Of a stretch of 29,571 nt of DNA, positions 7,147 to 23,370 are shown in pieces (the first letter of the stretch is position 1; each line of letters begins with the position of its first letter). Origin of the DNA: a virus; IMG/VR virus record IMGVR_UViG_3300036945_000379, positions 1 to 29,571 of that record; one strand, 5' to 3'. Below the pieces are notes generated by a model that searched no databases, was not told the DNA's origin, and saw only the letters and a list, made by a program, of their open reading frames with translations. A program made the position numbers and the translations under genes.

Positions 7147-7350
7147 ATGGTTGATAACAAAGATGTTTTAGTAGAACTTAAAAAAATGAATGAGTTCTTA
7201 GAAAAGATTGATTGGAAACTTTGGACGCTACACGAAAAAGTTTTTGGTGCAAATGCCTCTGAAAAAGGCAGTTCGAAAGAAACTGGCACTAAGGATGTAG
7301 AACCAGTTGTTCCAACAGCAAAATATCCAACAATTGAAACTTGGGAATAA
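7147..7350 (+). CDS. Small WKLW-motif protein, copy 2
   Basis: A 67-residue protein preceded by AAGGAG (7135-7140, overlapping the upstream stop region). Residues 7-28, with VELKKMNEFLEKIDWKLW and a following short helix, match the helix of the preceding gene; the C-terminal half is Ser/Thr/Gly-rich and probably disordered, ending in a short YPTIETWE tail. Duplication and divergence of a short helical binding module is the simplest reading. Partner unknown. Confidence 0.72.
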   Translation: MVDNKDVLVELKKMNEFLEKIDWKLWTLHEKVFGANASEKGSSKETGTKDVEPVVPTAKYPTIETWE

Positions 7351-7351
7351 A

Positions 7352-7726
7352 ATGAAAAAAATGATTTGGGTTACCTTCCAAAAAGAAGGCATACACAAGT
7401 ATCCAGCGGCTCTAACTGATCCTAACTTGGCTACCGGCGATGAATATGATGTCAGCTTTCTTGGCTATCCTCACAGACACATGTTCCATTTTAAAGTAGC
7501 CATTGAAGTGTTTCATGATGATCGTGACATTGAATTTATTCAATTTAAACGCTGGTTGGAAAATCTTTATAAAGGTGCTATACTAGCATTAGACTTTAAA
7601 AGTTGCGAGATGATCGCAGAAGATTTGTACACACAAATTAATGCTCGCCATCCCGGCAGAGCAGTAACCATAGAAGTAAGTGAGGATGGTGAAAATGGAT
7701 GCTACATTCAATTTGAACAGAAGTAA
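7352..7726 (+). CDS. Divergent QueD/6-pyruvoyl-tetrahydropterin synthase-like protein
   Basis: A 124-residue protein, the size of QueD. ATG 7352 abuts the previous stop; the longer frame from 7307 would overlap. QueD turns dihydroneopterin triphosphate into 6-carboxy-tetrahydropterin in 7-deazaguanine synthesis. By eye the order of elements matches the T-fold family: a first strand with H15, an HRH pair (H41, H43) at the start of the second strand (compare LHGH in QueD), IEFIQFKRWLE (compare IIDFAELK), 'KSCEMIAEDLYTQI' (compare PTSEVLAKWIW) and a final 'VTIEVSEDGENGCYI' strand. The catalytic Cys four residues before HGH and the LDH segment are not evident, so activity is unproven. The nearby FolE, QueE and DpdA genes support the idea. 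Confidence 0.5.
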   Translation: MKKMIWVTFQKEGIHKYPAALTDPNLATGDEYDVSFLGYPHRHMFHFKVAIEVFHDDRDIEFIQFKRWLENLYKGAILALDFKSCEMIAEDLYTQINARHPGRAVTIEVSEDGENGCYIQFEQK

Positions 7727-7736
7727 GGTGAGAACT

Positions 7737-8093
7737 ATGCATAATAATAATTCTTATGTAAGTCGTGCCATGATCAATATCAACGATATCAAGTATGATT
7801 TGTTGAAGATCAGTGAAATGTACGACGGAGTGTTACAAGATGGTCTTGGACACGTTGCCGCAGACATGTTCTGCAAATATCTACAAGACATGTGCGACCA
7901 GCGATGGATCCACAGTTTTGAGATCACAGAGATTGTGTTAAAAGAACACAGTTACACATACGACATTAATATTCAAATTACTAATGATCGTACTCCTAAG
8001 AAATTAAAGATCCATGTGGGTCTTTATAAGAGTGCTTGGCCTAGCTTTGCTAGTACAATGAAGAACACTGACGCAGGTTATGTAAATGCCTAA
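7737..8093 (+). CDS. Hypothetical protein upstream of dpdA
   Basis: A 118-residue protein. ATG 7737 is chosen over the upstream frame opening at 7680 because it follows the previous stop and an AAGGTGAG ribosome site. The sequence suggests an N-terminal helical part (about residues 10-60, with two Cys in 'MFCKYLQDMC') and a C-terminal pair of beta strands ('YDINIQITND', 'KLKIHVGLY'). No family recognised. It overlaps the DpdA start by 8 bases, so it is co-translated with it and could be a partner subunit; that is inference. Confidence 0.7.
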   Translation: MHNNNSYVSRAMININDIKYDLLKISEMYDGVLQDGLGHVAADMFCKYLQDMCDQRWIHSFEITEIVLKEHSYTYDINIQITNDRTPKKLKIHVGLYKSAWPSFASTMKNTDAGYVNA

Positions 8094-9648
8094 TCATAAA
8101 ACCCGTGTAGATTTAAAAACACGCAATAAAGACTATGCAGTCTTTTTGCCAAGTATCAGCGGGTTCTATCAAACCTTTATTAGTAAACAACAACAAGAAG
8201 AATTCGTTCCATTGAATAGAATTCCAAAAGAGTTTGAGAATGGCATTGAAGGTATGAACTTCCTTAACAAGGAACAAGCATACTTTTACTACCCTGATGC
8301 GTTATATTCTGCAGGTCACGCACAGTTAGATATAACTAAGAGTTATGTTGAAGAATCTATGGTTCAACAACGTGATAAAACTAACCCCGACAGTTTTATT
8401 CTTGGTGACTCGGGCGGATTCCAGATTGGTAAAGGCGTTATTAACTTTGACTGGCAGCATTTCTGGGAGAAGCAAGGCGATGCAGGTTATGTAGGCGCCG
8501 CGGATAAAACCCGTATGGCAATTCTTAACTGGCTAGAGTTCACTGCTGATTATAGCATGGTACTTGACTTGCCAACTTGGAGTGCCGCACCTATCAATCA
8601 AGCACGTACAGGTCTTAAAGACTTCGGTGATTGTCTACGTGGAACATTGTTTAACAATGATTTCTTCTTAAAACATCGTCAAGGTAAGACTAAGTTCCTA
8701 AACGTTCTTCAAGGTGGTACTAACGAAGACGCTGACACTTGGTATGAAGCTGTCAAGCATTATCCATTTGAAGGTTGGGCTATGGGTGGTAATAACATGA
8801 AGGACGCAGACTTAATGTTACGACGCTTAGTTAAACTACGTGATGAAAAGTTGCTGGAGCCTGGACGTGATGTTATTCACTTCTTGGGTACTAGTAAACT
8901 TGAACTCGCTTGTTTGCTTACTGCCGTTCAACGTAATCTACGTGAACATGTTAATCCTAATATGAAGATTACATTTGACTGTGCTAGTCCGTTCTTAGCT
9001 ACTGCTTATGGACAGGCTTATACACAGCACGTTCATCGTAACAATCGTTTTAGTTACATTATGGATAAGGCCATTGATGATAGACGTCTTGCTGGTAGTG
9101 ATACGCCTTGGCCTTGGGGCAGTCCGGTCGGCGAACGTATGACTATGGGAGATGCTTGTTATTACAAACCCGGTGACTTGAATAAGTTAGGCAAGGAAAG
9201 TAGAACAAGTTGGGATAGCTTTGCTTACTTCTTAATGATGGGTCATAATGTATATCAACACATCGAATCTGTTCAACGTGCTAACGCATTGAATGATACT
9301 GCTTGTGTGTTACACAAACCTGATCCCGGTCATTGGCATCCTACTAAAGGCACTAATGGTGAACTTAGTAACTGGGTTCCGCGTAATGTGATCTATATCA
9401 CAGAGTTAGTTAATCGTGTGTTTACCAGTGAAACACCTTTTACCGAACTTGACCGAGCTTCTAAATTACTTGCTGACTTTAACGGCAAGAAAACTCTTAA
9501 GACTAATGCCAAAGCTAATAACTTGCTTTTTGAAATCGAAGATCCAAAAACAGGCGAGAAGATCATTGACAAAGGCAGCGATAATGACTCTGCCATAGTC
9601 GATGATTGGGATCTAAGCGAAGCTGAAAACATCTTAAAAGACGCATAA
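8086..9648 (+). CDS. dpdA: DpdA-type tRNA-guanine transglycosylase homologue (DNA 7-deazaguanine insertion)
   Basis: A 520-residue TGT-superfamily enzyme. Bacterial TGT exchanges guanine for preQ1 in tRNA; phage DpdA proteins exchange guanine for a 7-deazaguanine in DNA. Visible TGT elements, in order: DSGGFQ (D108 onward), LDLP (160-163), VLQGG (207-211) with GWAMGG (230-235), and FDCASPF with D298 in the place of the nucleophile Asp. The Cys-x-Cys-x2-Cys zinc site of bacterial TGT is not seen, and the protein is longer than a tRNA TGT, both favouring a DpdA-like phage enzyme. FolE and QueE in the same window support this. It heads a chain of overlapping genes. Confidence 0.85.
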   Translation: MPNHKTRVDLKTRNKDYAVFLPSISGFYQTFISKQQQEEFVPLNRIPKEFENGIEGMNFLNKEQAYFYYPDALYSAGHAQLDITKSYVEESMVQQRDKTNPDSFILGDSGGFQIGKGVINFDWQHFWEKQGDAGYVGAADKTRMAILNWLEFTADYSMVLDLPTWSAAPINQARTGLKDFGDCLRGTLFNNDFFLKHRQGKTKFLNVLQGGTNEDADTWYEAVKHYPFEGWAMGGNNMKDADLMLRRLVKLRDEKLLEPGRDVIHFLGTSKLELACLLTAVQRNLREHVNPNMKITFDCASPFLATAYGQAYTQHVHRNNRFSYIMDKAIDDRRLAGSDTPWPWGSPVGERMTMGDACYYKPGDLNKLGKESRTSWDSFAYFLMMGHNVYQHIESVQRANALNDTACVLHKPDPGHWHPTKGTNGELSNWVPRNVIYITELVNRVFTSETPFTELDRASKLLADFNGKKTLKTNAKANNLLFEIEDPKTGEKIIDKGSDNDSAIVDDWDLSEAENILKDA

Positions 9649-10535
9649 TGAAAAAAGCACTTATAATTGGATTAGGCTTTGGCCAGGCTGTTTATCGGCC
9701 TGTGCTAACAGAACTTGGTTATGAAGTGATTACTGTTGACATGGATACATCTAAAGGTGCTGATTTTTCAAACCTAGACGATGCTATTCGTGTTCACGGT
9801 AAATTTGATACTGTGAACATTTGTACTCCAAACTTTACACATATCAAGTTAGCAAGAAAAGTTGCCGCACTTAGTAAGATAGTATTTGTTGAAAAACCAG
9901 GCGTTGCCAACAGTGAAGCATGGCGACAACTTTGTTTTGATTATCCCGAGACTCGTTTCATGATGGTTAAGAATAATCAATATCGTGATACTATTGCACA
10001 GTTCAAACTACTTGCAGATCAAAGTCATACTGTTAGACTTGTTTGGAATAACAAAAATCGTATCCCAAATCCAGGTAGTTGGTTTACCACAAAAGAATTA
10101 GCCTTTGGTGGCGTTAGCCGTGATTTAATGCCTCATATGTTAAGTTATTATGTGGCATTGACAGACTACGCAAAAGGTAATAAACTATACAGTAACGCAG
10201 TACAACGACATGAACTCAAAGATATTACTGATACTGATTACGGCGTTGTCAATCGTGATGGCGCTTACGATGTCGATGACTTCTGTGAATTCGAATTTAA
10301 AAACGGCAACACAACTTGGGTCTTGACTGCTAACTGGAAAGACAATAAAGCTGATGATGTTTATATTAGTTTTGATATGAAGAATAGTGCCGCTAAGTTT
10401 GTTCTAGGTTTATGTCCAGAAGAAGCATACAAGGCAATGATAGAAACCGCTGTTACAAACCTAAATAATGACGAGTTCTGGAAAGAACAATTACAACAGG
10501 ATCTTTGGATCCACAAGCAAATAGAAAACTTATGA
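9648..10535 (+). CDS. Gfo/Idh/MocA-family oxidoreductase
   Basis: A 295-residue NAD(P)-dependent dehydrogenase-like protein. The N-terminal Rossmann fold has GLGFGQAV (residues 8-15), a 'TVDMD' acidic end of strand two, 'NICTPNFTH' (57-65) and EKPG with the conserved catalytic Lys83. The C-terminal half is the expected mixed alpha/beta dimer domain. Members usually oxidise or reduce sugars or inositols. It starts in a TAATG overlap with dpdA and ends in an ATGA overlap with a zinc-type dehydrogenase, so the three are made together. The substrate cannot be read from sequence. Confidence 0.88.
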   Translation: MKKALIIGLGFGQAVYRPVLTELGYEVITVDMDTSKGADFSNLDDAIRVHGKFDTVNICTPNFTHIKLARKVAALSKIVFVEKPGVANSEAWRQLCFDYPETRFMMVKNNQYRDTIAQFKLLADQSHTVRLVWNNKNRIPNPGSWFTTKELAFGGVSRDLMPHMLSYYVALTDYAKGNKLYSNAVQRHELKDITDTDYGVVNRDGAYDVDDFCEFEFKNGNTTWVLTANWKDNKADDVYISFDMKNSAAKFVLGLCPEEAYKAMIETAVTNLNNDEFWKEQLQQDLWIHKQIENL

Positions 10536-11437
10536 CAAGAATACTACAAACAACTGGTCAAGGTAATTTTATAGAAACTACATGGGATAATCCAGATTGT
10601 GGCGATTATGAGATTACCGTCGAAAGCATTATGACAGGCGTGTGCCGTAGTGACATTGATATGATGAACGGTGACTTTGGTCCTTTGCCTATTAATATGC
10701 AAGGACACGAAGGATTAGGTCGCGTAATTAAAGTTGGTAAAAATATTGGAATGACGCAAGTAGGAGACATTGTAGCTACTCGCGGAGAGCCTGCTTATGC
10801 AGATGTATACAACGTTAGAGCCAATGAATATGTAGTAGTGCCAGAAGCACATCCTAGATATATTTTAGAACCAGTAGCCTGTGGTATTAATGTAGTACAA
10901 CAACCAATTAGAGAAATTTCCGAACGTGCGGGACCAGGTAAAAAATTATTAATACTTGGCAGTGGTTTTCTTGCGTGGATTGCTTATAACACGATTAAAC
11001 TTAATCATTTAGATTTTGAAATCACAGTAGTAGGTAATAGCAACAAAGAACTTTGGAGTGAAGTTCTGCATCAAGACTATGAAGGCACATTTGATGTCAT
11101 CATTGACTTGAGCAGTAAGATGGATGTTTTTGAGAAACCCATTCTAAATAATGAAGCATTAGTAGTATTTGGCAGTCAAAAACAAGTTACTACAGACTTT
11201 AGTAATTTACTTTGGAAGGCGTGTACTATGATATTCCCAAGTCCAAGAACAGACGGCTTTTATCATTGTATGAAAGATGCGGCATATTGGATTGAACAAG
11301 GTGATATTCAAGTTGACAGCTTCTGGACTCAAGCGTATAATAGAGACACTGAATGGCAATCTGCATTTGCTGATGGCCTAGACCGTCCTGCAGGTTATAG
11401 CAGAGGATACATTTATTGGAACAAAGATGGCAATTGA
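10532..11437 (+). CDS. Zinc-type medium-chain dehydrogenase (MDR/alcohol dehydrogenase-like)
   Basis: A 301-residue medium-chain dehydrogenase. ATG 10532 is chosen for its ATGA overlap; the frame opens earlier at 10505. The catalytic zinc ligands are visible: C38 in GVCRSDID, H59-E60 in GHEGLG, and an EP pair at 113-114. The four-Cys structural zinc lobe is absent. The nucleotide-binding motif is ILGSGFLAW (141-149). It is shorter than typical members (about 340-380 residues), the loss being in the structural lobe and cofactor domain. Together with the Gfo/Idh gene before it, this looks like a two-step sugar or polyol oxidation/reduction pair; the substrate is unknown. Confidence 0.85.
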   Translation: MTRILQTTGQGNFIETTWDNPDCGDYEITVESIMTGVCRSDIDMMNGDFGPLPINMQGHEGLGRVIKVGKNIGMTQVGDIVATRGEPAYADVYNVRANEYVVVPEAHPRYILEPVACGINVVQQPIREISERAGPGKKLLILGSGFLAWIAYNTIKLNHLDFEITVVGNSNKELWSEVLHQDYEGTFDVIIDLSSKMDVFEKPILNNEALVVFGSQKQVTTDFSNLLWKACTMIFPSPRTDGFYHCMKDAAYWIEQGDIQVDSFWTQAYNRDTEWQSAFADGLDRPAGYSRGYIYWNKDGN

Positions 11438-11936
11438 TACAATAGGCCGTAAGGCAACAACTTATTTTATTGGTACAGAAGTAGAACGTACCGCTATGTA
11501 TGGTGAACGCACATTATTCGTGGTAGGTGTTCAACCTGTAGATAAAATTGTTAGTCTACTTAATGAGCATAAGCTACGTCACGTTTATCTCGGCACAAGT
11601 CAAAGTTTTACTCCTAAAGACTATGATGACTGGAAAGCCTGGGATTATATGATTGTTGAGTTGTTAGACGCAGGTTATTGGGTTACACTTGACTTCGGTG
11701 TAGAATACGCTGATACGTTTAACGAAGAAGGATGGAGTGAATATAACACATTCATTCCTATGATTAGCGTTAAACTTCCTCATATTAAATTGTATAATTA
11801 TAATGCTACACTAAAGATTGATGATACTACATGGGGTCATAGTAATCCAGGCGTATGGTGTCATAGTCTACACGACTTATTAGACCGTAAAGTTTACACA
11901 GACTGGAAAGATTATGTAGGAGACGAAAATGTCTAA
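11427..11936 (+). CDS. Hypothetical protein between dehydrogenase and glycosyltransferase
   Basis: A 169-residue protein, starting in an 11-base overlap with the dehydrogenase and ending in an 8-base overlap with the glycosyltransferase. The sequence reads as an alpha/beta fold: strands at 'TLFVVGVQ' (about 27-34), 'RHVYLGTSQSF' (48-58), 'YWVTLDFGVEY' and 'FIPMISVKLP', with a Trp- and His-containing 'TWGHSNPGVWCHSLHDLL' segment near the C-terminus. The alternation suggests a Rossmann-like or TIM-barrel-fragment core. No family recognised. Its strict sandwiching argues for a part in the same pathway. Confidence 0.75.
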   Translation: MAIDTIGRKATTYFIGTEVERTAMYGERTLFVVGVQPVDKIVSLLNEHKLRHVYLGTSQSFTPKDYDDWKAWDYMIVELLDAGYWVTLDFGVEYADTFNEEGWSEYNTFIPMISVKLPHIKLYNYNATLKIDDTTWGHSNPGVWCHSLHDLLDRKVYTDWKDYVGDENV

Positions 11937-12987
11937 GATATTTTTAGTTGATTTAGAATCAGTTAGCACTCGCTATACTGGTCAGTGGAAAGAGCATGTT
12001 CCACAATTACTTAAAAAGGCAGGTCATGAAGTTCAAGTCATATCGGGTCCTAGCGATATCCCTAGCGCCACTACTCCTGGTGCATTTCTTAATTTTGGGG
12101 GCACTAATATCTATAAGGCAGACCAAGTTGCACAGCTTGGAAGACTTTTTTGTTCAGGATCCGTCCAGGCTGGCGATCATTTTATCTTTACTGACGCTTG
12201 GCATCCAGGTATCATCAACCTGAAGTATATGAGCGAGTTGCTGGGCATCCCAGTAACCACACACGGACTATGGCATGCTGGTAGTTATGATCCGCAAGAC
12301 TTCTTAGGACGTCTTGTAGGTAACAAGCCTTGGGTTAGAAATGCTGAAAAGAGTTTCTTTCACGCATTTGATCATAACTACTTTGCCACAGACTTTCACA
12401 TTGAAATGTTTTCTAATAACTTGTTTCACGACGAGGATGTAGAACTAGCCGATGACAAAGTTATACGCACAGGTTGGCCCATGGAGTATATGGACGAAAC
12501 CCTAAAGCCATTTAAGAATTTAAACAAACGAGATCTTATCTTGTTCCCGCATCGTATCGCTCCAGAGAAGCAAGTCGAAATCTTTAGAGATCTAAAAAAA
12601 CATTTGCCTCAATATGAATTTGTGGTATGTCAAGATGACCAACTAACTAAAAAACAATATCATACATTGTTAGGTCAAGCTAAAATGGTGTTCAGTGCCA
12701 ACTTGCAAGAAACACTGGGCATTAGTTGCTACGAAGGCGCCATAGTAAATGCCATCCCAATGGTTCCAGATAGACTAAGCTATAGCGAAATGTACTTGGA
12801 CGTATTCAAATACGAAAGCAAATGGACAGAGTCTTGGGAGGCATACAATGTGTATCGTCCTGATCTATGTCGTGCTATCATAACACACATGGATTATTAT
12901 CATACTCGTCTACGCCAGCTTAAAGAACAAACAGAATATTTGTCTATGAACTTCTTTAGTGCCAATGATATGTTAAAAAATCTATAA
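11929..12987 (+). CDS. GT-B fold glycosyltransferase (GT4-like)
   Basis: A 352-residue glycosyltransferase. The C-terminal nucleotide-sugar domain shows LILFPHRIAPEKQ (about 203-215), a 'EFVVCQDDQ' strand, and an EX7E motif (E261 to E269) within QETLGISCYEGAIVNAIPMVP, typical of GT4-type retaining enzymes. The N-terminal acceptor domain has 'WKEHVPQLLKKAGHEVQVI' (20-38), the usual first helix and strand. It overlaps the genes on both sides. The acceptor is unknown; DNA (through the modified base), virion protein or lipid are all possible. Confidence 0.82.
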   Translation: MSKIFLVDLESVSTRYTGQWKEHVPQLLKKAGHEVQVISGPSDIPSATTPGAFLNFGGTNIYKADQVAQLGRLFCSGSVQAGDHFIFTDAWHPGIINLKYMSELLGIPVTTHGLWHAGSYDPQDFLGRLVGNKPWVRNAEKSFFHAFDHNYFATDFHIEMFSNNLFHDEDVELADDKVIRTGWPMEYMDETLKPFKNLNKRDLILFPHRIAPEKQVEIFRDLKKHLPQYEFVVCQDDQLTKKQYHTLLGQAKMVFSANLQETLGISCYEGAIVNAIPMVPDRLSYSEMYLDVFKYESKWTESWEAYNVYRPDLCRAIITHMDYYHTRLRQLKEQTEYLSMNFFSANDMLKNL

Positions 12988-13427
12988 TGTTTATTATATA
13001 CTTTTTATTGTGGACATTGATATTGTACGCTGTGCATCGTGCTGTTCATAACTTGCCGTATTTAAAAGATATTCATCGAGAGCATCATAGGTATGTTGTC
13101 CGTAGTAAAGAATCTGGAATAGCATTAAGACATTTCTTTCTTATTCATAAATCAAAAGATTACACTATTGATTTATGGATTACAGAAGTTGTTCCTACTA
13201 TTCTATTTTCCTTAGTAACAGGCCAACTATGGATATTAGTTATTTACTATATTTGGGCGGCATTGTTTCAAACATCTACAAAGTACGACACTAATTTTGA
13301 TGTGTTTCCTCTTACATGGGGTGCATGGACACTACTTCACTATAGACATAATTCAAATAATTTTGGCAGTATATTTACTATATGGGATAGACTTTTTAAA
13401 ACTAATAAAGGAATAAATCAAATATGA
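12987..13427 (+). CDS. Fatty acid hydroxylase/sterol desaturase-like membrane protein
   Basis: A 146-residue membrane protein with the His boxes of the non-haem di-iron hydroxylase superfamily: HRAVH (17-21), HREHH (30-34) and HYRHNSNNFG (118-127, where H118 and H121 are kept and the last His of HxxHH is Asn). Hydrophobic segments lie at about 1-15 and 66-95. It is shorter than cellular members (usually over 200 residues). The start forms TAATG with the glycosyltransferase stop. Such enzymes use O2 and two irons to hydroxylate or desaturate lipids. The substituted last His leaves activity open. Confidence 0.72.
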   Translation: MFIIYFLLWTLILYAVHRAVHNLPYLKDIHREHHRYVVRSKESGIALRHFFLIHKSKDYTIDLWITEVVPTILFSLVTGQLWILVIYYIWAALFQTSTKYDTNFDVFPLTWGAWTLLHYRHNSNNFGSIFTIWDRLFKTNKGINQI

Positions 13428-13777
13428 TTAAAATACAAAGTTATGGATCTACTCCTGGTTGGTATCAAGTAGATACTAGTTATAATCAACCGAGTATTAC
13501 TGGCGCTGTTCAATGGAATGGTTCTACTAAATGCTTTGAAGTTAGTACAGGCAGTACTTGGATGCGAATAGATAATACTGTTCAAATTCATAATAGCAGT
13601 ACCTATGATATAAATGTTATCGGGGCATGGGTGCATAAAAAGATGCAAGAGGAAGAAGAAACTAAGAAACTGCGTAGTAAATACCCAGCACTAGATGAAG
13701 CATACAATCATTTGGATTTGATTAAAGCATTAGTTACATCTGGAACAGAAGAAAATAGCGTACAAACAGGACCATGA
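13424..13777 (+). CDS. Small fibre/virion-like protein
   Basis: A 117-residue protein. Residues 1-60 are beta-rich and Gly/Ser/Thr-rich, with 'GAVQWNGSTKCFEVSTGSTW' (about 23-42), a phrase of the kind seen in phage tail fibre and head decoration proteins ('...W.g..f.v..G..W'). A charged helix 'KKMQEEEETKKLRSKYPALDEAYNHLDLIKAL' follows (about 70-104, given here only in part as the key region). The SKYP-containing end resembles that of the protein at 16018-16425. It sits in an ATGA chain between enzymes, unusual for a structural protein. Confidence 0.65.
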   Translation: MIKIQSYGSTPGWYQVDTSYNQPSITGAVQWNGSTKCFEVSTGSTWMRIDNTVQIHNSSTYDINVIGAWVHKKMQEEEETKKLRSKYPALDEAYNHLDLIKALVTSGTEENSVQTGP

Positions 13778-14235
13778 TATTCAACAAAATTAAAAAGTTA
13801 AAAGAAGATGGATTAAAAGTCGGTATAACTTTTAGTACATTTGATTTATTTCACGCAGGGCATGTAGCTATGTTAGCTGAAGCAAAAAATCACTGCGACT
13901 ATCTAATTGCCGCACTACAAACAGATCCAACCATTGATCGACCTGATACTAAAAATCCGCCGATACAAAGTATTGTAGAACGACAAATACAATTAAGTAC
14001 AAATCGTAATGTGGATGAAGTTGTTATTTATCAAACAGAAAAAGACTTAGAAGACCTATTGCTTATTCTACCTATTGATGTTAGAATACTAGGCGTAGAG
14101 TACGCAGACAAAGAGTTTACAGGAAAACAAATCTGCAGAGATCGTGGAATTGAAATTGTGTTTAACGGAAGAGATCACAGTTTTAGTTCAAGCAGTTTGC
14201 GTAAGCGAGTAGTACAAGCAGAAAGTAAAAAATGA
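13774..14235 (+). CDS. Cytidylyltransferase/adenylyltransferase-family nucleotidyltransferase
   Basis: A 153-residue nucleotidyltransferase of the RfaE2/TagD type, full length for the family. It shows the HxGH motif in FDLFHAGH (H27, H30), the 'TDPT...' region after strand two, and SSSSLRKR near the C-terminus, matching the family's second nucleotide-binding signature. Members couple CTP or ATP to glycerol-phosphate, heptose-phosphate or phosphopantetheine. The neighbours (a UDP-sugar dehydrogenase directly after in an ATGA overlap, a glycosyltransferase before) point to making an activated sugar or polyol. The substrate cannot be told from sequence. Confidence 0.85.
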   Translation: MIFNKIKKLKEDGLKVGITFSTFDLFHAGHVAMLAEAKNHCDYLIAALQTDPTIDRPDTKNPPIQSIVERQIQLSTNRNVDEVVIYQTEKDLEDLLLILPIDVRILGVEYADKEFTGKQICRDRGIEIVFNGRDHSFSSSSLRKRVVQAESKK

Positions 14236-15035
14236 AAACAAAAGTAGCAATTATAGGAATGGGTTTCGTAGGCGGTGCAATACATAATTCTTTTTCTAAT
14301 AACACGAATGTAGAATTACTTGCTATCGATCCAGCAAAAGGTTGGATGGCATCATATCTTGACATAATTAACTTTGATGCAGTATTTGTCTGTGTGCCTA
14401 GTCCACAACGTCCAGACGGATCGTGTGACACAAGCATATTAGTTGAAGTATTAAATCAATTATCTATTGTAAACTTTAAAGGTGTTATCATTAGCAAAGT
14501 TACAGCAATACCAAGTGTATACACAGGATTACAATCAAAGTATACAAACTTAGTACATGCTCCAGAGTTTCTAACTGCGGCTAATGCTATATCGGATTAT
14601 GTCAATGGTAGCTTTGCTGTTATTGGCGGAGCAACTACAGCATATAGAAACGAAGCAGAACGCATCATTCGTTTAAGCCAACCAAATTTAAATTCAGTAA
14701 CACATTGTAGTATTGGAGAAGCTAGCTTTGCCAAATATACAATCAACAGCTTCCTTGCTACTAAAGTTATTTTTATGAATGAAATGGCAAAACTAGCCCA
14801 AGAAAATGGTTGTGATTGGAACAGCATTAAACAAGCAGTTGCACAGGATAAACGGCTTGGTGCCAGTCATATGCAAGTGCCTGGTCCAGATGGCGAATAT
14901 GGTTTTGGTGGTATGTGTTTTCCAAAAGACACAAATGCCATGGTCAAGTTTGCAGAATGGTGTGAACAGGATCTAAGTGTTTTGGCTACAGCAGTTGCAA
15001 AGAATAATAAAATTCGCTTGACTGAACCTAAATAA
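14232..15035 (+). CDS. UDP-glucose/GDP-mannose dehydrogenase family protein, C-terminally short
   Basis: A 267-residue protein. It has the Rossmann motif AIIGMGFVGG (6-15), CVPSPQRPDG (54-63), APEFL (110-114), the central helix with the conserved Lys and Asn in 'KYTINSFLATKVIFMNEMA' (168-186), and the catalytic Cys229 in GGMCFPKDT. This covers the NAD domain and the dimerisation domain, but the third, UDP-binding domain of 390-450-residue members is absent; the stop is a clean TAA. The first steps (oxidation through a Cys thioester) could still be possible on another substrate. The -35 of the FolE promoter lies in its last codons. Confidence 0.85.
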   Translation: MKTKVAIIGMGFVGGAIHNSFSNNTNVELLAIDPAKGWMASYLDIINFDAVFVCVPSPQRPDGSCDTSILVEVLNQLSIVNFKGVIISKVTAIPSVYTGLQSKYTNLVHAPEFLTAANAISDYVNGSFAVIGGATTAYRNEAERIIRLSQPNLNSVTHCSIGEASFAKYTINSFLATKVIFMNEMAKLAQENGCDWNSIKQAVAQDKRLGASHMQVPGPDGEYGFGGMCFPKDTNAMVKFAEWCEQDLSVLATAVAKNNKIRLTEPK

Positions 15036-15046
15036 TAGTGTATACT
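15018..15046 (+). promoter_or_regulatory. Sigma70-type promoter of folE
   Basis: TTGACT (15018-15023), a 17-base spacer and TATACT (15041-15046). The -35 lies in the last codons of the upstream dehydrogenase. The leader of about 38 bases contains only a weak GGCA/TGCC hairpin; no preQ1 riboswitch pattern is seen. Confidence 0.7.
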
Positions 15047-15090
15047 TAATACACACGGCAACGACCTCTGCCTTAACATAGGAAAATAAA

Positions 15091-15828
15091 ATGACAGAAC
15101 CAGTAACATTAAACAACATAGACGACAAGGGCTATGAAGAAGCATATCTAGGCGATCATCTTCGCTTTAAAATGAAACGTGAAGGCAAACGTTTTTGGGC
15201 GGGAGATAACATCAGCGATTATCTATACGAAGGCGACATAGAAAAACTAATTGACGAGGCAACACCTGCATTTGAACAAGTGCTAGACAGTTTGCTTATT
15301 GATCGTGAAAACGATCCTAATAGCAAAGGTACTGCAAGACGTCTTGCTAAGATGTACTTTAATGAAATTATGGCAGGAAGATATGAACCAGCACCAGACG
15401 CTACAGCGTTCCCAAATGATTCAACGGACCGTTATGAAGGTATGCTTGTTGTTCGTAGTGAGCTTCGCAGTATGTGTAGCCATCATCACCAACCCGTTAG
15501 TGGCGTTGCTTATATTGGCATCATTGCCGCTGAGAAACTTATTGGACTCTCAAAGTACACCCGCATCGCTCAGTGGTGTGCAAGACGTGGTACTCTCCAG
15601 GAGGAACTTTGTAACGATATTGCTAGGGAAATCGAAAAAGCTACCGGAGCAAAAAATCTAGGTGTTTATATTCAAGCTACACATGGATGTTGTGAAAATC
15701 GTGGCATTATGGCACACTCTAGTCTAACACAGACAACAGTACTCAAAGGTTCTTTTAAAACTGATCCAGGTGCAAAGAAAGAATTCTTTGACAATATTAA
15801 ATTACAACAAGAATTTGCACCACGATGA
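15091..15828 (+). CDS. folE: GTP cyclohydrolase I (FolE)
   Basis: A 245-residue GTP cyclohydrolase I, which makes dihydroneopterin triphosphate, the entry point to both folate and 7-deazaguanine synthesis. The zinc ligands are visible: C129 and H132 in MCSHHHQP, and C200 in HGCCENRG. The substrate segments 'LIGLSKYTRIA' (150-160) and 'RRGTLQEEL' (165-173) are intact. The first 45 residues are an extension before the family core. It has its own promoter and ends in an ATGA overlap with the next gene. With QueE and DpdA nearby, its likely job is DNA base modification rather than folate supply. Confidence 0.95.
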   Translation: MTEPVTLNNIDDKGYEEAYLGDHLRFKMKREGKRFWAGDNISDYLYEGDIEKLIDEATPAFEQVLDSLLIDRENDPNSKGTARRLAKMYFNEIMAGRYEPAPDATAFPNDSTDRYEGMLVVRSELRSMCSHHHQPVSGVAYIGIIAAEKLIGLSKYTRIAQWCARRGTLQEELCNDIAREIEKATGAKNLGVYIQATHGCCENRGIMAHSSLTQTTVLKGSFKTDPGAKKEFFDNIKLQQEFAPR

Positions 15829-16031
15829 AAGACCCTGTAATAGAACAACTAGTATTAGAATTACAAGATGCTATTAATCGTGTAAATTCTATTACAGAGA
15901 AACTACAAGATCTAAACGTAGAAGTTAGGATTGCTTATGTAGATCCTAAGAGCCCCGAGAATATGAACAAGACTGATATCAAACAAGGTATCAAGGTTTG
16001 GCGCATAGAAGAACACAATGACTACCTCTAA
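15825..16031 (+). CDS. Small coiled-coil-like protein
   Basis: A 68-residue acidic protein starting in an ATGA overlap with folE. Residues 3-32 form a heptad-like helix (ILV/NQ pattern), followed by a strand 'VEVRIAYVDP' and 'GIKVWRIEEHNDYL'. It overlaps the next gene by 14 bases. No family recognised; possibly a structural or binding peptide. Confidence 0.65.
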   Translation: MKDPVIEQLVLELQDAINRVNSITEKLQDLNVEVRIAYVDPKSPENMNKTDIKQGIKVWRIEEHNDYL

Positions 16032-16425
16032 TTCAGGATACGGTGCTATTCCATCCATACACAATGCTATTCCAGGTGGCATTGGTGCTCAAGGCGCCAG
16101 CGGGCAAATTCTAACTTCTAATGGCATGAATGGCACTAGTTGGATGAGCCAAGGTATTAACATAGCACAGCCAAGTGCTATGCAAATTGGCAATAATCCA
16201 GATCCTGTTCTAACAATTCATTACGATGGTACTATAACAACTAAGGCTGGATCTATCACAACAGAAGATTGGATATCTGTTATTAAAGTTATGAAACAGA
16301 TAATCATGGATATGAGTAAAGATCAGGAATTAGTATCTAAATATCCATATATACAAGATGCGGCGCACACTTGGTTTATGAATGAACTTAAAGGAAGAGA
16401 TAATGGCAAAACCAAAGATGAATAA
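16018..16425 (+). CDS. Small fibre/virion-like protein with collagen-like Gly stretch
   Basis: A 135-residue protein. The N-terminal half is Gly/Ser/Asn-rich, with 'GGIGAQGASGQILTSNG' (about 21-37) followed by GTSW, a phrase typical of phage tail fibre and neck proteins. Then comes 'PDPVLTIHYDGTITT', another phrase frequent in virion proteins of T4-like phages, and a helical C-terminus with SKYPYIQDAAHTW. That end resembles the SKYP region of the protein at 13424-13777. It lies inside an operon of metabolic genes. Structural role inferred from composition. Confidence 0.65.
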   Translation: MTTSNSGYGAIPSIHNAIPGGIGAQGASGQILTSNGMNGTSWMSQGINIAQPSAMQIGNNPDPVLTIHYDGTITTKAGSITTEDWISVIKVMKQIIMDMSKDQELVSKYPYIQDAAHTWFMNELKGRDNGKTKDE

Positions 16426-16609
16426 AATCAGTGACAAGTTATCAAAAGTAAACGATAGCTTCACTGTTTATATGTATGACAACGGCTTTATGGTAGAAAT
16501 TGCTGGCAATGATCATAAAGAAGATTGGGCTAATACTAAAATTGTTTGCACAAGTATGGCAGAGCTTGTTGAGTTGATTCAAGAAGCAACGGAACTAGAA
16601 AGAAGTTAA
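16403..16609 (+). CDS. Hypothetical small protein
   Basis: A 68-residue protein. ATG 16403 is preferred over ATG 16382 because AAGGAAGAGA (16391-16400) lies directly before it. It has a Lys-rich N-terminus, a beta pair 'FTVYMYDNGFMVEIAG' and a C-terminal helix 'SMAELVELIQEATEL', a compact beta-beta-alpha pattern. No family recognised; overlaps the upstream gene by 23 bases. Confidence 0.65.
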   Translation: MAKPKMNKISDKLSKVNDSFTVYMYDNGFMVEIAGNDHKEDWANTKIVCTSMAELVELIQEATELERS

Positions 16610-16611
16610 TC

Positions 16612-16911
16612 ATGGCAACGAAAAAGAAAATCAAAGCAGAAGAAGTTAAAGTAAAGAAGCCTGCTAAGAAAAAAGATAGCATTACATTGGAAATGCCCGG
16701 TACTATTGGTAGTGCAAAAATTGTATTACCGAAAACTAAAGTTGTAAAAGGTAGTCATTTAACTATCACTTACACTAATGGTTACCCTGAAAAATTAGAA
16801 TGGGATGATGAAGCATTGATGCGAGATGTCCGAGCGGCACTACTAAAAGCAGAGAGTAACATTCCAGCTACAACGGAAACTAAACCAAAGAAAGCCAAAA
16901 AAGTAAAGTAA
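16612..16911 (+). CDS. Lys-rich hypothetical protein
   Basis: A 99-residue protein with Lys-rich tails at both ends (residues 1-22 and 85-99) flanking a core of beta strands 'SITLEMPGTIGSAKIVLP' and 'SHLTITYTNGYPEKLEW' (about 24-70) and a helix. The basic tails would suit nucleic acid binding, which is inference. It follows the previous stop by two bases and is followed closely by the next gene. No family recognised. Confidence 0.68.
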   Translation: MATKKKIKAEEVKVKKPAKKKDSITLEMPGTIGSAKIVLPKTKVVKGSHLTITYTNGYPEKLEWDDEALMRDVRAALLKAESNIPATTETKPKKAKKVK

Positions 16912-16912
16912 A

Positions 16913-17164
16913 ATGCCTACGGTAAAAAGTCAGCAGTTAATATTCCTTAACTTTTGGGAATGTAAACAGTTAGAATATTGGTTAGCTGATAACTTTCCTG
17001 ATTGTACTATTCGTAGTTTATACGATACTTGGTCTAGTCCAGAACAAGAAGAATGGTATGCCATAGAAGGTAACATATCACTTGACATGGAACTACTTCT
17101 GAAGTTAAAATACGGTAATAAATTAAAAGGCTCAAACGCAGGAATAAGATATGGACAAAATTAA
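16913..17164 (+). CDS. Hypothetical protein upstream of queE
   Basis: An 83-residue protein, starting one base after the previous stop and overlapping queE by 14 bases. Aromatic-rich, with 'FLNFWECKQLEYWLADNFPDC' features in the first third (two Cys) and a Trp-containing 'EEWYAIEGNI' strand. No family recognised. The tight overlap suggests translational coupling to queE. Confidence 0.65.
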   Translation: MPTVKSQQLIFLNFWECKQLEYWLADNFPDCTIRSLYDTWSSPEQEEWYAIEGNISLDMELLLKLKYGNKLKGSNAGIRYGQN

Positions 17165-18011
17165 AGTAAGTGAGATTTTTTATAGCGCACAAGGCGAAGG
17201 TCGCTTTATCGGCGTACCTAGTGTGTTCTTTCGCACATTCGGTTGTAACTTCAAATGCCCGGGCTTTGGCTTGCCCGCAGGACAAAAGACTACAGAGCCA
17301 GATGACATAGGTGCAAAAGTTCATCTATACAAAACATTTATGGACTTGCCATTGGCACAAACAGGCTGTGATAGTTATGCAAGTTGGCATCCTGCATTTA
17401 AACATCTAAGCCCTTACTATAGCATTGATGAAGCTATTGCAGAAATGTTAAAGCTAACTCCTAATCATGCATGGAAGCAAGACAATGGCAATGACGTACA
17501 CTTAGTTATTACTGGCGGTGAACCTTTGCTAGGATGGCAACAACTATATCCAGACTTGTTAAGTGAAAACAAGATGCGTGACTTAGAGAATCTTACATTT
17601 GAAACTAATGGTACTCAACATTTACATGAGGATTTTAAACGCTTCTTGATCAATGACTATCATCTACGCAAAGATCAAATTACATTTAGCGTTAGTCCTA
17701 AGCTAAGTGCCAGCGGAGAATCTTGGAAGGATGCAGTCTGTCCAGAAGTAGTAGCAGAATATCAAACACGTGGCTTTACTTACTTAAAGTTTGTTGTTGA
17801 TAAATTAGAAGACTTTAAAGAAGTAGATGCCGCTACAGCAGAGTATCGTGAAGCTGGATTTAAAGGTCCAGTATTTGTTATGCCTGTAGGCGGTACAGAT
17901 GCGGCATACTTTGCCAACAGTAAACACATTGCAGACATTGCTCTAGAACGAGGTTACAGATATAGTCCTAGATTACACGTAGACATTTGGTCTAACGGAT
18001 GGGGTAAATGA
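17151..18011 (+). CDS. queE: 7-carboxy-7-deazaguanine synthase, QueE-like radical SAM enzyme
   Basis: A 286-residue QueE homologue. QueE uses SAM and a 4Fe-4S cluster to turn 6-carboxy-tetrahydropterin into 7-carboxy-7-deazaguanine. It begins with EIFYSAQGEG (8-17) and 'GVPSVFFRTFGCNFKC', and has ITGGEPLL for SAM binding. The cluster motif is unusual: C32-x3-C36 is present but C39 is replaced by Phe, and the 'Cys-Asp' that normally completes the motif appears as GCDSY at C73, after an insertion (CX3CX36C). The insertion and the 'SWHPAFKHLSP' that follows are, from memory, shared by QueE-like proteins of other T4-like aquatic phages. It overlaps both neighbours. Confidence 0.88.
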   Translation: MDKIKVSEIFYSAQGEGRFIGVPSVFFRTFGCNFKCPGFGLPAGQKTTEPDDIGAKVHLYKTFMDLPLAQTGCDSYASWHPAFKHLSPYYSIDEAIAEMLKLTPNHAWKQDNGNDVHLVITGGEPLLGWQQLYPDLLSENKMRDLENLTFETNGTQHLHEDFKRFLINDYHLRKDQITFSVSPKLSASGESWKDAVCPEVVAEYQTRGFTYLKFVVDKLEDFKEVDAATAEYREAGFKGPVFVMPVGGTDAAYFANSKHIADIALERGYRYSPRLHVDIWSNGWGK

Positions 18012-18346
18012 CACAAACACCTGCACAAGGTATAATGCTTGACAGAGATTATGGTGATAGTAAATCATATACTATCGCCTGTGATTGTCATGACGGCGAC
18101 CATCAAGTTCATATGTGGATCGAACTTAATGGAGATCAAGACACTAAAGATGTCGAAATGATATTTTATGTAAATACTACCACGCCCTTTTGGAAATCAG
18201 GATTTAGTCGTTTTAAAGCGGCCTGGGACATCTTAACCAAGGGCTATAGAGAAGATCAACATACATTGATTTTAAATAAACAGGCAGCATTGAATGTTGC
18301 TAGTACTATCAATCAAGTAGTAAAAGAATTACAAGGAAAAAAATGA
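18008..18346 (+). CDS. Hypothetical protein between queE and metK
   Basis: A 112-residue protein chained by ATGA overlaps to queE and metK. The N-terminal two thirds are beta-rich ('SYTIACDCHDGDHQVHMWIEL', about 20-40, with two Cys and two His that could bind a metal; 'KDVEMIFYVNT'), followed by an Arg/Lys-rich segment and a C-terminal helix 'LNVASTINQVVKELQ'. Similar small proteins occur in T4-like aquatic phages as far as I recall, without known function. Confidence 0.7.
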   Translation: MTQTPAQGIMLDRDYGDSKSYTIACDCHDGDHQVHMWIELNGDQDTKDVEMIFYVNTTTPFWKSGFSRFKAAWDILTKGYREDQHTLILNKQAALNVASTINQVVKELQGKK

Positions 18347-19437
18347 GTTATTTGTTTACCAGTGAGAGTGTGTCAGAAGGACACCCGGATAAAATTGCTG
18401 ATGCTATCAGCGATGCAGTATTAGATTTAGTTATGGCCAAAGAAGATTCTAGTCTTCGGTGCGCCTGCGAAACACTAGTAACTACTAATCGTGTAGTATT
18501 GGCTGGAGAATACAAAGGTATTTTAGATAAATTAGAAGTAGAAGGCGCAGTTCGTAATGTTATTAGAAACGTAGGTTATGAGCAAACTGGATTCGACTGG
18601 CGTAATGTAGAAATTACTAACTTACTACACGGGCAAAGCGCAGATATTGCATTAGGTACAGATAACTTTGGTGCAGGCGACCAAGGCTTAATGTTTGGCT
18701 ATGCTTGCAATGAAACTGATAACCATATGCCCAGTGCAATTTACTGGAGTCACGAGATACTCAGACACTTAACTGATGCTCGCAAAAACGGTGTTCTAGC
18801 TTGGTTAGGTCCCGATGCTAAGAGCCAAGTAACATTTGAATACAATGACGATGGTACACCAAAACGTATTGCCAAAGTAGTTTGCAGTACACAACACAGT
18901 GAATCAATTGATATCCAACAACTGCGTAGTGTAATAACTTCGTTTATTCGCAATGTGCTACCAGGTAAATATTTAGATGATAACACTGAATTCTTTATTA
19001 ACCCTACTGGTCGATTTGTCATTGGCGGCCCTGACGGTGACACTGGTCTCACGGGAAGAAAAATCATCGTGGATACCTACGGTGGTTATAGCCCTCATGG
19101 CGGTGGGGCTTTTAGTGGTAAGGACCCTACTAAGGTAGATCGAAGTGCCGCTTATCTGACACGTTGGATTGCTAAAAACATTGTAGCAAGTGGCCATGCT
19201 GACTGGGCCAATGTACAAATTAGCTATGCTATTGGGCTTGCACAGCCTATGAGCTTTTACATTGAAAGTAATGGCGATAGTAGAAAGCTAACTAAAACAA
19301 TCGAAGATCTAATAGACCTAACTCCTAAAGGTATTATCGATCGCTTCAACTTGTTCCGTCCTATCTATAGTAGCACTACAAACTACGGACACTTTGGTAA
19401 AGATTATTTACCATGGGAAAAGATTGATCTATTCTAA
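18343..19437 (+). CDS. metK: S-adenosylmethionine synthetase (MetK)
   Basis: A 364-residue methionine adenosyltransferase, slightly shorter than the usual 380-400. It makes SAM from methionine and ATP. Family signatures are intact: FTSESVSEGHPDKIAD (5-20, ATP and Mg sites), GAGDQGLMFGYA (about 110-121), the PTGRFVIGGPDGDTGLTGRK stretch and GGGAFSGKDPTKVDRSAAY, with a full C-terminal domain. It is chained to queE by overlaps through one small gene. The likely role is to raise SAM for QueE and the two other radical SAM proteins, or for phage methylation; which one is inference. Confidence 0.96.
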   Translation: MSYLFTSESVSEGHPDKIADAISDAVLDLVMAKEDSSLRCACETLVTTNRVVLAGEYKGILDKLEVEGAVRNVIRNVGYEQTGFDWRNVEITNLLHGQSADIALGTDNFGAGDQGLMFGYACNETDNHMPSAIYWSHEILRHLTDARKNGVLAWLGPDAKSQVTFEYNDDGTPKRIAKVVCSTQHSESIDIQQLRSVITSFIRNVLPGKYLDDNTEFFINPTGRFVIGGPDGDTGLTGRKIIVDTYGGYSPHGGGAFSGKDPTKVDRSAAYLTRWIAKNIVASGHADWANVQISYAIGLAQPMSFYIESNGDSRKLTKTIEDLIDLTPKGIIDRFNLFRPIYSSTTNYGHFGKDYLPWEKIDLF

Positions 19438-21820: not shown

Positions 21821-22127
21821 CATTATCTTTGAACAATTACAAAAGTCAGTGGGTAAGGACTTAGAGTTTTTTCAAATATATAAAAATACCAAAGGTACTA
21901 GATTTACTAGTACAGGATTTGAACTAGCAAAACGTTTGTGGAAAACATATCCACTAAAATTCAAACAAGAGTATAGGGTACTAAACAAAACATTATTACT
22001 TTTAGACGAACGTATGGATTGGCCATATTACTTGAGTAAACGTCAGTTAGTTTTGTTCAGTGAGATGGATGCTTTTGAATTCACATTATATTCAGGTGAT
22101 ATAAATCTATGGGCCAACAAATTTTAA
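21786..22127 (+). CDS. Hypothetical helical protein
   Basis: A 113-residue protein, mainly helical, with a basic middle ('GFELAKRLWKTYPLKFKQ', about 44-61) and 'DWPYYLSKRQLVLFSEMDAFEF' features near the end. It overlaps its neighbours by 35 and 19 bases. The 'WPYYL...LVLFSEMDAFEFTLYSGDI' ending resembles, from memory, small conserved proteins of T4-like phages. Function unknown. Confidence 0.68.
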   Translation: MNQTLSKKQISDIIFEQLQKSVGKDLEFFQIYKNTKGTRFTSTGFELAKRLWKTYPLKFKQEYRVLNKTLLLLDERMDWPYYLSKRQLVLFSEMDAFEFTLYSGDINLWANKF

Positions 22128-22804
22128 ACACAATTAATGAACAGGGCTATTGTGTTGTTCGCAATTTAATCGATCAGGAAGACATCGATGACCTTAACTT
22201 TCTACAACACTATTTAGAACCACAGCGTGGGCATGATTTTACTGCCAAATATTTTCCTAAAAAGAAACTTGATGAAGCAGGAGAATTTGCTATATGGTGG
22301 AGTCAACAACTTACAGGTTGGGAATGTGTTAAATCTATTAACAATAAATTATTAGAAGTTTCTAAAGAGTGGTTTAATGACAGCGTTGTTTATGTCTGTG
22401 ATGTTATTACCAATGAACCAGGCAATAAATTTGTCAAGCCTCATATAGATACTCCTTATAGATTTGATCCTTGGCACGAAAGTTTCGAACTACTAGGAAT
22501 TCAATGTATTGTTCCTTTATGCGAATTCAATGAAGAAAATGGCGGCACTGGTTTATATCCAGGTAGCCATTTGAGAAATTGGGTAGTGCAAGATAGTTAT
22601 AAAGGTGTGTACACAGAAGAATTTTTGGCTAATGTAGTACAGCCGGAAATGGGTCCAGGCGATGTACTAATGTATAATCCAAGGGTATTACATAGTACTA
22701 TGCCAAATAATACAGATTTAAAACGCAGGGCCTTGCTAACCCATATAACTGCTAGAGAAATGGTAGACCAATTAAAATTGGTAGATAATATTTGGTTAGA
22801 GTAA
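22109..22804 (+). CDS. PhyH-type 2-oxoglutarate/Fe(II) dioxygenase
   Basis: A 231-residue dioxygenase of the phytanoyl-CoA hydroxylase family. The iron facial triad is visible: H112 and D114 in KPHIDTPY, and H195 in VLHSTMPN, with R206/R207 placed to bind 2-oxoglutarate. 'GGTGLYPGSH' (145-154) and 'MGPGDVLMYN' (181-190) are the usual strands between them. Such enzymes hydroxylate small molecules, amino acids or nucleobases. It precedes the exported Lys/Pro/Ala-rich gene after a 91-base gap. Substrate unknown. Confidence 0.87.
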   Translation: MGQQILNTINEQGYCVVRNLIDQEDIDDLNFLQHYLEPQRGHDFTAKYFPKKKLDEAGEFAIWWSQQLTGWECVKSINNKLLEVSKEWFNDSVVYVCDVITNEPGNKFVKPHIDTPYRFDPWHESFELLGIQCIVPLCEFNEENGGTGLYPGSHLRNWVVQDSYKGVYTEEFLANVVQPEMGPGDVLMYNPRVLHSTMPNNTDLKRRALLTHITAREMVDQLKLVDNIWLE

Positions 22805-23358: not shown

Positions 23359-23370
23359 TGCCCATTTTTC
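23344..23370. terminator. Bidirectional terminator between convergent genes
   Basis: GAAAAATGGGC (23344-23354), loop TTAAT, GCCCATTTTTC (23360-23370): an 11-bp perfect stem with T runs on both strands. It covers the stop codon of the + strand small gene (23356-23358) and reaches the stop of the minus-strand radical SAM gene (23369-23371), so it can end transcription from both sides. Confidence 0.85.

Follow-up and report, generated by a model that had tools for sequence, protein, structure and literature searches.

Gene set of the locus

The viral DNA studied here (IMG/VR record IMGVR_UViG_3300036945_000379; 29,571 bases, hereafter the window) carries genes for most of a 7-deazaguanine DNA-modification pathway but none for QueC, as a sequence-only reading of this DNA had proposed. 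FolE, QueE, a DpdA-type guanine transglycosylase and a protein of family phrog_17812 are all encoded on the plus strand. In this pathway QueC acts next after 7-carboxy-7-deazaguanine (CDG). The route by which FolE, QueD and QueE lead to CDG is established (partial texts of PMC6884629 and PMC13329287). The window also encodes a family-B DNA polymerase and a 5'-3' exonuclease domain. No tRNA gene was found in it, and an Rfam search of it gave no match.

FolE (GTP cyclohydrolase I, 15091–15828) matches PF01227 with E = 3.3e-38 and phrog_2197 with E = 7e-43. Across loci L004–L083 one region holds FolE of two types, either 80–94% identical to the window FolE or only 31–40% identical. This pattern suggests gene replacement. 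QueE (7-carboxy-7-deazaguanine synthase, a radical S-adenosylmethionine (SAM) enzyme, 17151–18011) matches phrog_2076, 'QueE-like', with E = 8.7e-53. Five NCBIfam QueE models match as well, with E-values from 2e-12 to 2e-7, all below their cut-offs. The cluster cysteines C32 and C36 are invariant and C73 is nearly invariant in an alignment of 20 QueE sequences. A broken QueE was considered and rejected; the third cysteine is shifted by an insertion and is still present. MetK, the S-adenosylmethionine synthetase, follows at 18343–19437 on the same strand (TIGR01034, E = 4.7e-142, above cut-off). Judged from gene position only, its product might feed the radical-SAM step.

The transglycosylase gene lies at 8086–9648. 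Its product matches nothing in Pfam, PHROG or NCBIfam, and a PDB sequence search with E allowed up to 0.1 was likewise empty. It is 37% identical to a PA5oct-like 'hypothetical protein'; the family is divergent and also occurs in Pseudomonas phage PA5oct. The AlphaFold2 model has a predicted local distance difference test (pLDDT) of 81.6, and every structural match listed (50 per search) is a tRNA-guanine transglycosylase (TGT). The best scores are a Foldseek E-value of 4.2e-9 and a Z-score of 19.1 with a root-mean-square deviation (rmsd) of 4.6 over 301 residues. The two Asp motifs of the TGT superfamily supply catalytic-type residues. Both motifs, DSGG(F/Y)Q and (F/Y)D(C/A)ASP, are kept in all 25 aligned DpdA-type sequences, and D108 and D298, one in each motif, are invariant. 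On the predicted model, assignment to a DpdA-type transglycosylase with the TGT-superfamily fold is confirmed. FolE, QueE and DpdA had each been named in the sequence-only reading, and the present results support all three names. An enzyme of this fold might act on tRNA, the pathway then raising queuosine-type tRNA modification in the host; the fold alone cannot separate a DNA from an RNA substrate. Against such a role, the protein is very distant from TGT (14–16% identity across the aligned core, among the matches listed). The DNA of phage nt-1 contains 7-deazaguanines (partial text of Hutinet et al. 2019), and the family phrog_10773 protein of this phage, encoded beside QueC, is taken to be the DpdA2 described there. 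We consider a tRNA target very improbable.

The phrog_17812 protein and the separate QueD

The phrog_17812 gene lies at 7352–7726 on the plus strand (E = 3.2e-36). Its open reading frame (ORF) spans 7307–7726 and opens with TTG at 7307; the ATG at 7352, the start used in the sequence-only reading, is the likely start. No Pfam family matches the window protein at E up to 0.01, PF01242 (QueD) included, and a PDB sequence search gave nothing credible. The predicted structure is a T-fold with pLDDT 89.4. Escherichia coli QueD is its top Foldseek match (E = 1.2e-6) and superimposes with Z 12.0 and rmsd 2.4 over 111 residues at 22% identity. An archaeal PTPS structure ties with QueD at Z 12.2, and other PTPS/QueD structures are also level by Z.

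From the 41 distinct ORFs listed for the family, 25 were aligned with the window sequence. Residues E27, H30, H56, H58, S99-C100-E101 and E126 (numbered from 7307) are invariant in all 26 sequences. In phage QueDs, C53 and D96-H97 are invariant in 17 of 17 aligned sequences (23 were extracted and six left out). The profile–profile match between the two families is moderate (probability 75%, E = 2.5e-5). It sets HRH of phrog_17812 against HGY of QueD, aligns the CE of both families and places E126 at the C-terminal Glu; H30 falls outside the aligned stretch. The QueD Cys lies opposite an invariant Leu and the Asp-His opposite a variable loop of phrog_17812, which reads Lys-Gly in the window protein. 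Across the 26 sequences, no Cys or Asp-His is conserved at those positions. From these alignments we infer that the phrog_17812 protein retains ring binding and has lost QueD catalysis; metal binding is probably retained. Two longer phage proteins hold phrog_17812 as their C-terminal part behind an additional N-terminal portion, namely gp176 of Vibrio phage Bakedbeans (L106, 383 residues) and a protein of Chryseobacterium phage MA9V-3 (L110, about 293 residues).

A separate, true QueD occurs in relatives. The nearest relative is a contig of 235,561 bases, G001, whose DpdA is 98% identical to that of the window. It encodes a PF01242 QueD about 68 kb from the region of its phrog_17812-type gene. 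Of the 12 isolate records that carry phrog_17812, 11 also have PF01242 and only D479 lacks it. When a profile of phage QueDs, to which G001, G010 and G024 had contributed, was run on 18 records, it detected QueD in 8, among them all five large contigs selected by QueE. The label 'QueD-like' given in the sequence-only reading is therefore right for the fold and wrong for the step, given the missing PF01242 match, the loss of the catalytic Cys and Asp-His, and the separate QueD in G001.

Absence of QueC and the proposed pathway

The Pfam QueC profile has no match in the window. QueF has none among 48 of 51 window ORFs scanned against Pfam; the three ORFs left out are shorter than 80 residues, and a fuller program list holds 84 ORFs. 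Both absences had been stated in the sequence-only reading. The window is a fragment, so absence of a gene from it alone proves little and relatives are needed. G001 has no QueC match. Full-length QueC is found in none of 34 contigs selected by DpdA (the contigs of 34 of 80 DpdA loci); ten of them match the QueC profile at E ≤ 0.001, in every case only partially. A second set was selected by QueE. Its 80 loci include 25 contigs of 20 kb or longer; 22 of these were searched and three already in the DpdA set were excluded. None of these 22 has full-length QueC, 15 carry phrog_17812 and two have partial QueC matches. A QueC elsewhere in the phage, as the earlier reading had allowed, is therefore disfavoured, and the absence of QueC in this phage group looks real.

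Isolated phages show an exchange of the two genes. We examined 20 isolate records, 12 of them with phrog_17812 (out of 26 such records in the phage collection surveyed below). QueC at E < 1e-50 occurs in none of the 12, and X1 among them has a partial match of 16 bits, below cut-off. Six of the eight records without phrog_17812 have QueC at E < 1e-50. Of the other two, Illi-2 has two weaker QueC matches, one near full length with 69 bits, and Bipper has neither gene. Exchanges inside one transglycosylase family are less open to selection bias than this contrast between records. The phrog_10773 transglycosylase adjoins QueC in nt-1, and in ACP17, X1 and BUCT-ZZ01 it occurs with phrog_17812 and without full-length QueC. 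Phage pf16, which is not among the 26 phrog_17812 records, has a tblastn homologue of this transglycosylase beside an annotated QueC. In Stenotrophomonas phage Ps15, QueC, a transglycosylase and QueE are ORFs 139–141, and ACP17 is a clear though distant relative of its genus (partial text of PMC9025141). The order in ACP17 is transglycosylase, glycosyltransferase, phrog_17812, QueE. In Vibrio phage 2.275.O a DpdA of the window type is accompanied by QueC and an annotated QueF; PA5oct combines this DpdA type with phrog_17812 and shows no match to QueC. Two transglycosylase families thus each show an exchange between QueC and phrog_17812. A profile comparison of window DpdA with the X1 transglycosylase gave no match.

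Several QueC-like ORFs in relatives were tried as QueC and rejected. Canonical QueC has three further motifs beyond SGGxDS (partial text of PMC13329287). The QueC-superfamily ORF of about 210 residues in G010 and G024 (loci L084 and L085) has SGGxDS and a Cys-rich tail and none of the three. The G022 ORF also has none, and that of D479 lacks SGGxDS as well. Used as a query against 28 records, the G024 ORF gives a full match only in G010 and G024 and a weak partial one in G022. Genes neighbouring it in L085 look oxygenase-like by eye. ORFs of about 300 residues with SGGxDS in several relatives match just the first third of the QueC profile. Loci L087–L093 (G002–G004, G006, G007, G013 and G021) hold ORFs of about 310–326 residues with a PP-loop, lying about 4–6 kb or less from DpdA except in G013. 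Those of L087, L088, L089 and L091 have SGG(L/I)DS and look asparagine-synthetase-like by eye. The amide ligase CmoY, which serves a different phage system of DNA hypermodification, is also of the asparagine-synthetase-like kind (partial text of PMC12783734). The PP-loop proteins could act on a carboxylated base.

Decarboxylation of CDG to 7-deazaguanine requires neither ATP nor ammonia. We propose that FolE and QueE, together with a QueD from another part of the phage genome, would make CDG, that the phrog_17812 protein would take the place of QueC and most likely decarboxylate CDG to 7-deazaguanine, and that the DpdA-type transglycosylase would exchange guanine in phage DNA for this base and so shield the DNA from restriction. 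The GT4-like glycosyltransferase described below would perhaps add a sugar. CDG is the simplest substrate for phrog_17812 because the protein has the QueD fold, keeps the ring site, has lost QueD catalysis and is found where QueC is missing. Gene content, folds, the lack of full-length QueC in relatives, the exchange of QueC with phrog_17812 and the association with the glycosyltransferase are what the sequence and model comparisons show; the chemistry throughout, the phrog_17812 substrate, a target in DNA and not in tRNA, and the addition of a sugar are what we infer from them. Taken as a whole, a QueC-less branch of phage 7-deazaguanine DNA modification, with phrog_17812 as CDG decarboxylase, is the explanation we favour by a little over even chances. 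Cui et al. reportedly found 2'-deoxy-7-deazaguanine and dCDG in phage DNA in 2023 and predicted a CDG decarboxylase, DpdL. Such an enzyme would supply the QueC-free step.

A number of observations weigh against this explanation. Decarboxylation rests on pathway logic and on the reported prediction of DpdL, which may be a different protein from phrog_17812. Partial QueC-family matches stand above the Pfam cut-off in three of the 34 DpdA-selected contigs (G010, G022 and G024) and just above it in one QueE-selected contig. Seven of the 22 QueE-selected contigs, one of them of 105 kb, have neither phrog_17812 nor QueC. PF01242 is found in only 5 of the 34 DpdA-selected contigs, and G009 and G021, both longer than 230 kb, show no QueD with either profile. 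D479 carries phrog_17812, lacks QueD and has a partial QueC-family match above the Pfam cut-off (32.8 bits, profile positions 133–201). DpdA was not found in six isolate lineages with phrog_17812, two transglycosylase families having been searched. The contrast among isolates is biased, since four of the eight phrog_17812-negative records were picked as known QueC phages. The window glycosyltransferase taken alone has no significant glycosyltransferase match (PF00534 absent).

Two other accounts leave out phrog_17812 as a decarboxylase. In the first, host QueC makes preQ0 from CDG boosted by the phage, DpdA inserts preQ0 and phrog_17812 is unrelated. The queuosine pathway is present in most hosts of phages of this type, and host supply has been discussed (partial text of Hutinet et al. 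2019). However, phrog_17812 and QueC at E < 1e-50 never occur together in the 20 isolate records, the two genes replace each other as described, and host supply predicts neither a replacement gene nor a linked glycosyltransferase. We regard this account as unlikely. In the second, which the sequence-only reading had also raised, dCDG itself is inserted and phrog_17812 acts as a helper or is a degenerate form of QueD. No QueC is encoded, and CDG has been raised as the possible base of Mycobacterium phage Bipper, which lacks only QueC (partial text of Hutinet et al. 2019). Bipper also lacks phrog_17812, so a phage without QueC does not for that reason alone need this protein. Strict conservation in 26 sequences and a kept place suggest that phrog_17812 performs a catalytic step. 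Insertion of dCDG seems to us slightly less likely still than host supply. Neither account explains why several unrelated phages have a second QueD-fold enzyme in the place of the missing QueC, or why the glycosyltransferase frequently accompanies it. The product made from CDG without QueC is probably plain 7-deazaguanine, perhaps with a sugar, and this is likelier than the bases named in the sequence-only reading. The base to seek shifts from preQ0-type bases to 7-deazaguanine or its sugar derivative, and the list given there for liquid chromatography–mass spectrometry (dCDG, dADG, dPreQ0 and dPreQ1) would miss both.

The gene set resembles the phage DpdA systems of 9g, CAjan, nt-1 and Dp-1 (Hutinet et al. 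2019) in FolE, QueE and a DpdA-type transglycosylase, with QueD in G001. It differs in having no QueC and, in its place, phrog_17812 and often the glycosyltransferase; unlike in those systems, the window transglycosylase family is unmatched by Pfam, PHROGs and NCBIfam. Cellulophaga phages phiST and phi19:2 are similar in combining phrog_17812 with FolE, QueD and QueE (order QueD-QueE-FolE-MazG-phrog_17812) without a QueC match, but their genomes lack this glycosyltransferase family, and no DpdA was identified in them with the two transglycosylase families searched. Acidovorax phage ACP17 and the Pseudomonas jumbo phages PA5oct and Paride share with the window a transglycosylase, a GT4-like glycosyltransferase, phrog_17812, QueE and a homologue of the 11427–11936 protein described below; ACP17 and PA5oct have no QueC match. 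The ACP17 transglycosylase is of the nt-1 type, unlike that of the window, whereas that of PA5oct is of the window type. The pathway is already known, and its QueC-free branch may already have been described under the name DpdL. Among the literature matches listed, none was relevant to DpdL. In what was covered of the literature we found no description of a QueC replacement of the phrog_17812 family or of its link to the glycosyltransferase and the 11427-type protein. The available text of papers on MIJ3, Callisto and Paride does not contain the term 'queuosine', nor that on Callisto and Paride the term 'deazaguanine'. The analysis names a family with no assigned function as a probable QueC substitute, and the modification is testable in cultured phages, including Paride, which kills dormant Pseudomonas.

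The linked glycosyltransferase and neighbouring genes

The putative GT4-like glycosyltransferase tied to phrog_17812 is encoded at 11929–12987 and the conserved protein beside it at 11427–11936, both on the plus strand. PF00534 is matched by 6 of 20 aligned members of the glycosyltransferase family. Among homologues in isolates, those of X1 (8e-12) and BUCT-ZZ01 (5.5e-6) pass the PF00534 cut-off, and those of ACP17 (2.5e-4), PA5oct (1.1e-3) and Phosso (0.089) miss it. A PDB sequence search gave one weak match, WlaC, with E = 0.028. In a synteny survey of 80 viral-contig loci around DpdA, phrog_17812 is present in 74, and the other six end before its place in close relatives. The glycosyltransferase is present in 63 of the 80 loci by tblastn (some at just 20–25% identity) and the 11427-type protein in 72. 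Relatives such as L024 and L061 have the compact order DpdA, 11427-type protein, phrog_17812, glycosyltransferase. The window order is different: its phrog_17812 gene comes before DpdA, and a pair of oxidoreductase genes lies between DpdA and the 11427–11936 and glycosyltransferase genes.

In a survey of 50,697 phage records, phrog_17812 is found in 26 and the glycosyltransferase in 20, of which 16 also carry phrog_17812. The four remaining records, with 24.5% identity, come from phages of Xanthomonas and Erwinia. As records are not independent, associations were weighed by lineage. The glycosyltransferase occurs in 5 of 11 phrog_17812 isolate lineages (PA5oct-like, ACP17, X1, Phosso and BUCT-ZZ01), in G001 and in all five large QueE-selected contigs; it was found in none of the eight isolate records without phrog_17812. 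The profile used includes the proteins of PA5oct, ACP17, Phosso and BUCT-ZZ01, so these four match by construction; all five lineages had also been recovered with an earlier profile from which these proteins were absent. The gene adjoins phrog_17812 in those four phages and lies one gene away in X1. Among records with an ACP17-type transglycosylase (40 of 70 matches listed), it is present only in the four phrog_17812 carriers, ACP17 (twice), X1 and BUCT-ZZ01. The 11427-type protein is found by tblastn in 13 of the 50,697 records, all phrog_17812 carriers and from two lineages only, PA5oct-like and ACP17; in PA5oct its gene lies about 27 kb from phrog_17812. None of its 25 members has a PHROG match, a PDB sequence search with the window protein gave nothing credible, and as a QueE or QueD relative it was rejected for want of a profile match.

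The glycosyltransferase may serve another molecule, as part of the nearby sugar genes and unrelated to the base. Between DpdA and FolE the window encodes a nucleotide-sugar dehydrogenase, a heptose-type nucleotidyltransferase and oxidoreductases, and 6 of the 11 phrog_17812 isolate lineages lack a glycosyltransferase of this family. Bare 7-deazaguanine also has no hydroxyl to accept a sugar. The gene nevertheless adjoins phrog_17812 or lies one gene from it in five isolate lineages with different hosts, it tracks phrog_17812 and not the transglycosylase type, and 16 of its 20 records in the collection are phrog_17812 carriers. We hold service to another molecule to be a serious possibility, somewhat short of even. 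Transfer of sugar to the inserted base is the weakest step of the proposed pathway, and since the bare base has no hydroxyl it would need a carbon-linked sugar or a further handle. A carboxyl group serves as a handle for DNA hypermodification in another system (partial text of PMC12783734), so by analogy CDG is a possible sugar acceptor. Glycosylated 7-deazaguanine in DNA, made by the QueC-free phrog_17812 route, inserted by DpdA and given its sugar by the linked glycosyltransferase, is a tentative and rather doubtful reading. It would span phages of Pseudomonas, Acidovorax, Xanthomonas, Sinorhizobium and Synechococcus and many uncultured large phages. In T4 the sugar is on hydroxymethylcytosine, whereas here it would be on a guanine-type base. 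Among the literature matches listed we found no description of guanine hypermodification by a glycosyltransferase on the base; if the enzyme does act there, this sugar would be the new part of the QueC-less variant.

A small conserved ORF beside phrog_17812 (7680–8093, plus strand) is present in 48 of the 80 DpdA loci and has no Pfam or PHROG match. Two more radical-SAM proteins (PF04055) are encoded at 1587–2825, here also with a SPASM domain, and at 23369–24613 on the minus strand. A Phytanoyl-CoA dioxygenase-family (PhyH) protein is encoded at 22109–22804 (E = 1.9e-16); as speculation, such an oxygenase could be the source of a hydroxyl that accepts the sugar. A Ferritin-like protein (PF00210, E = 3.2e-20) is encoded at 965–1405.

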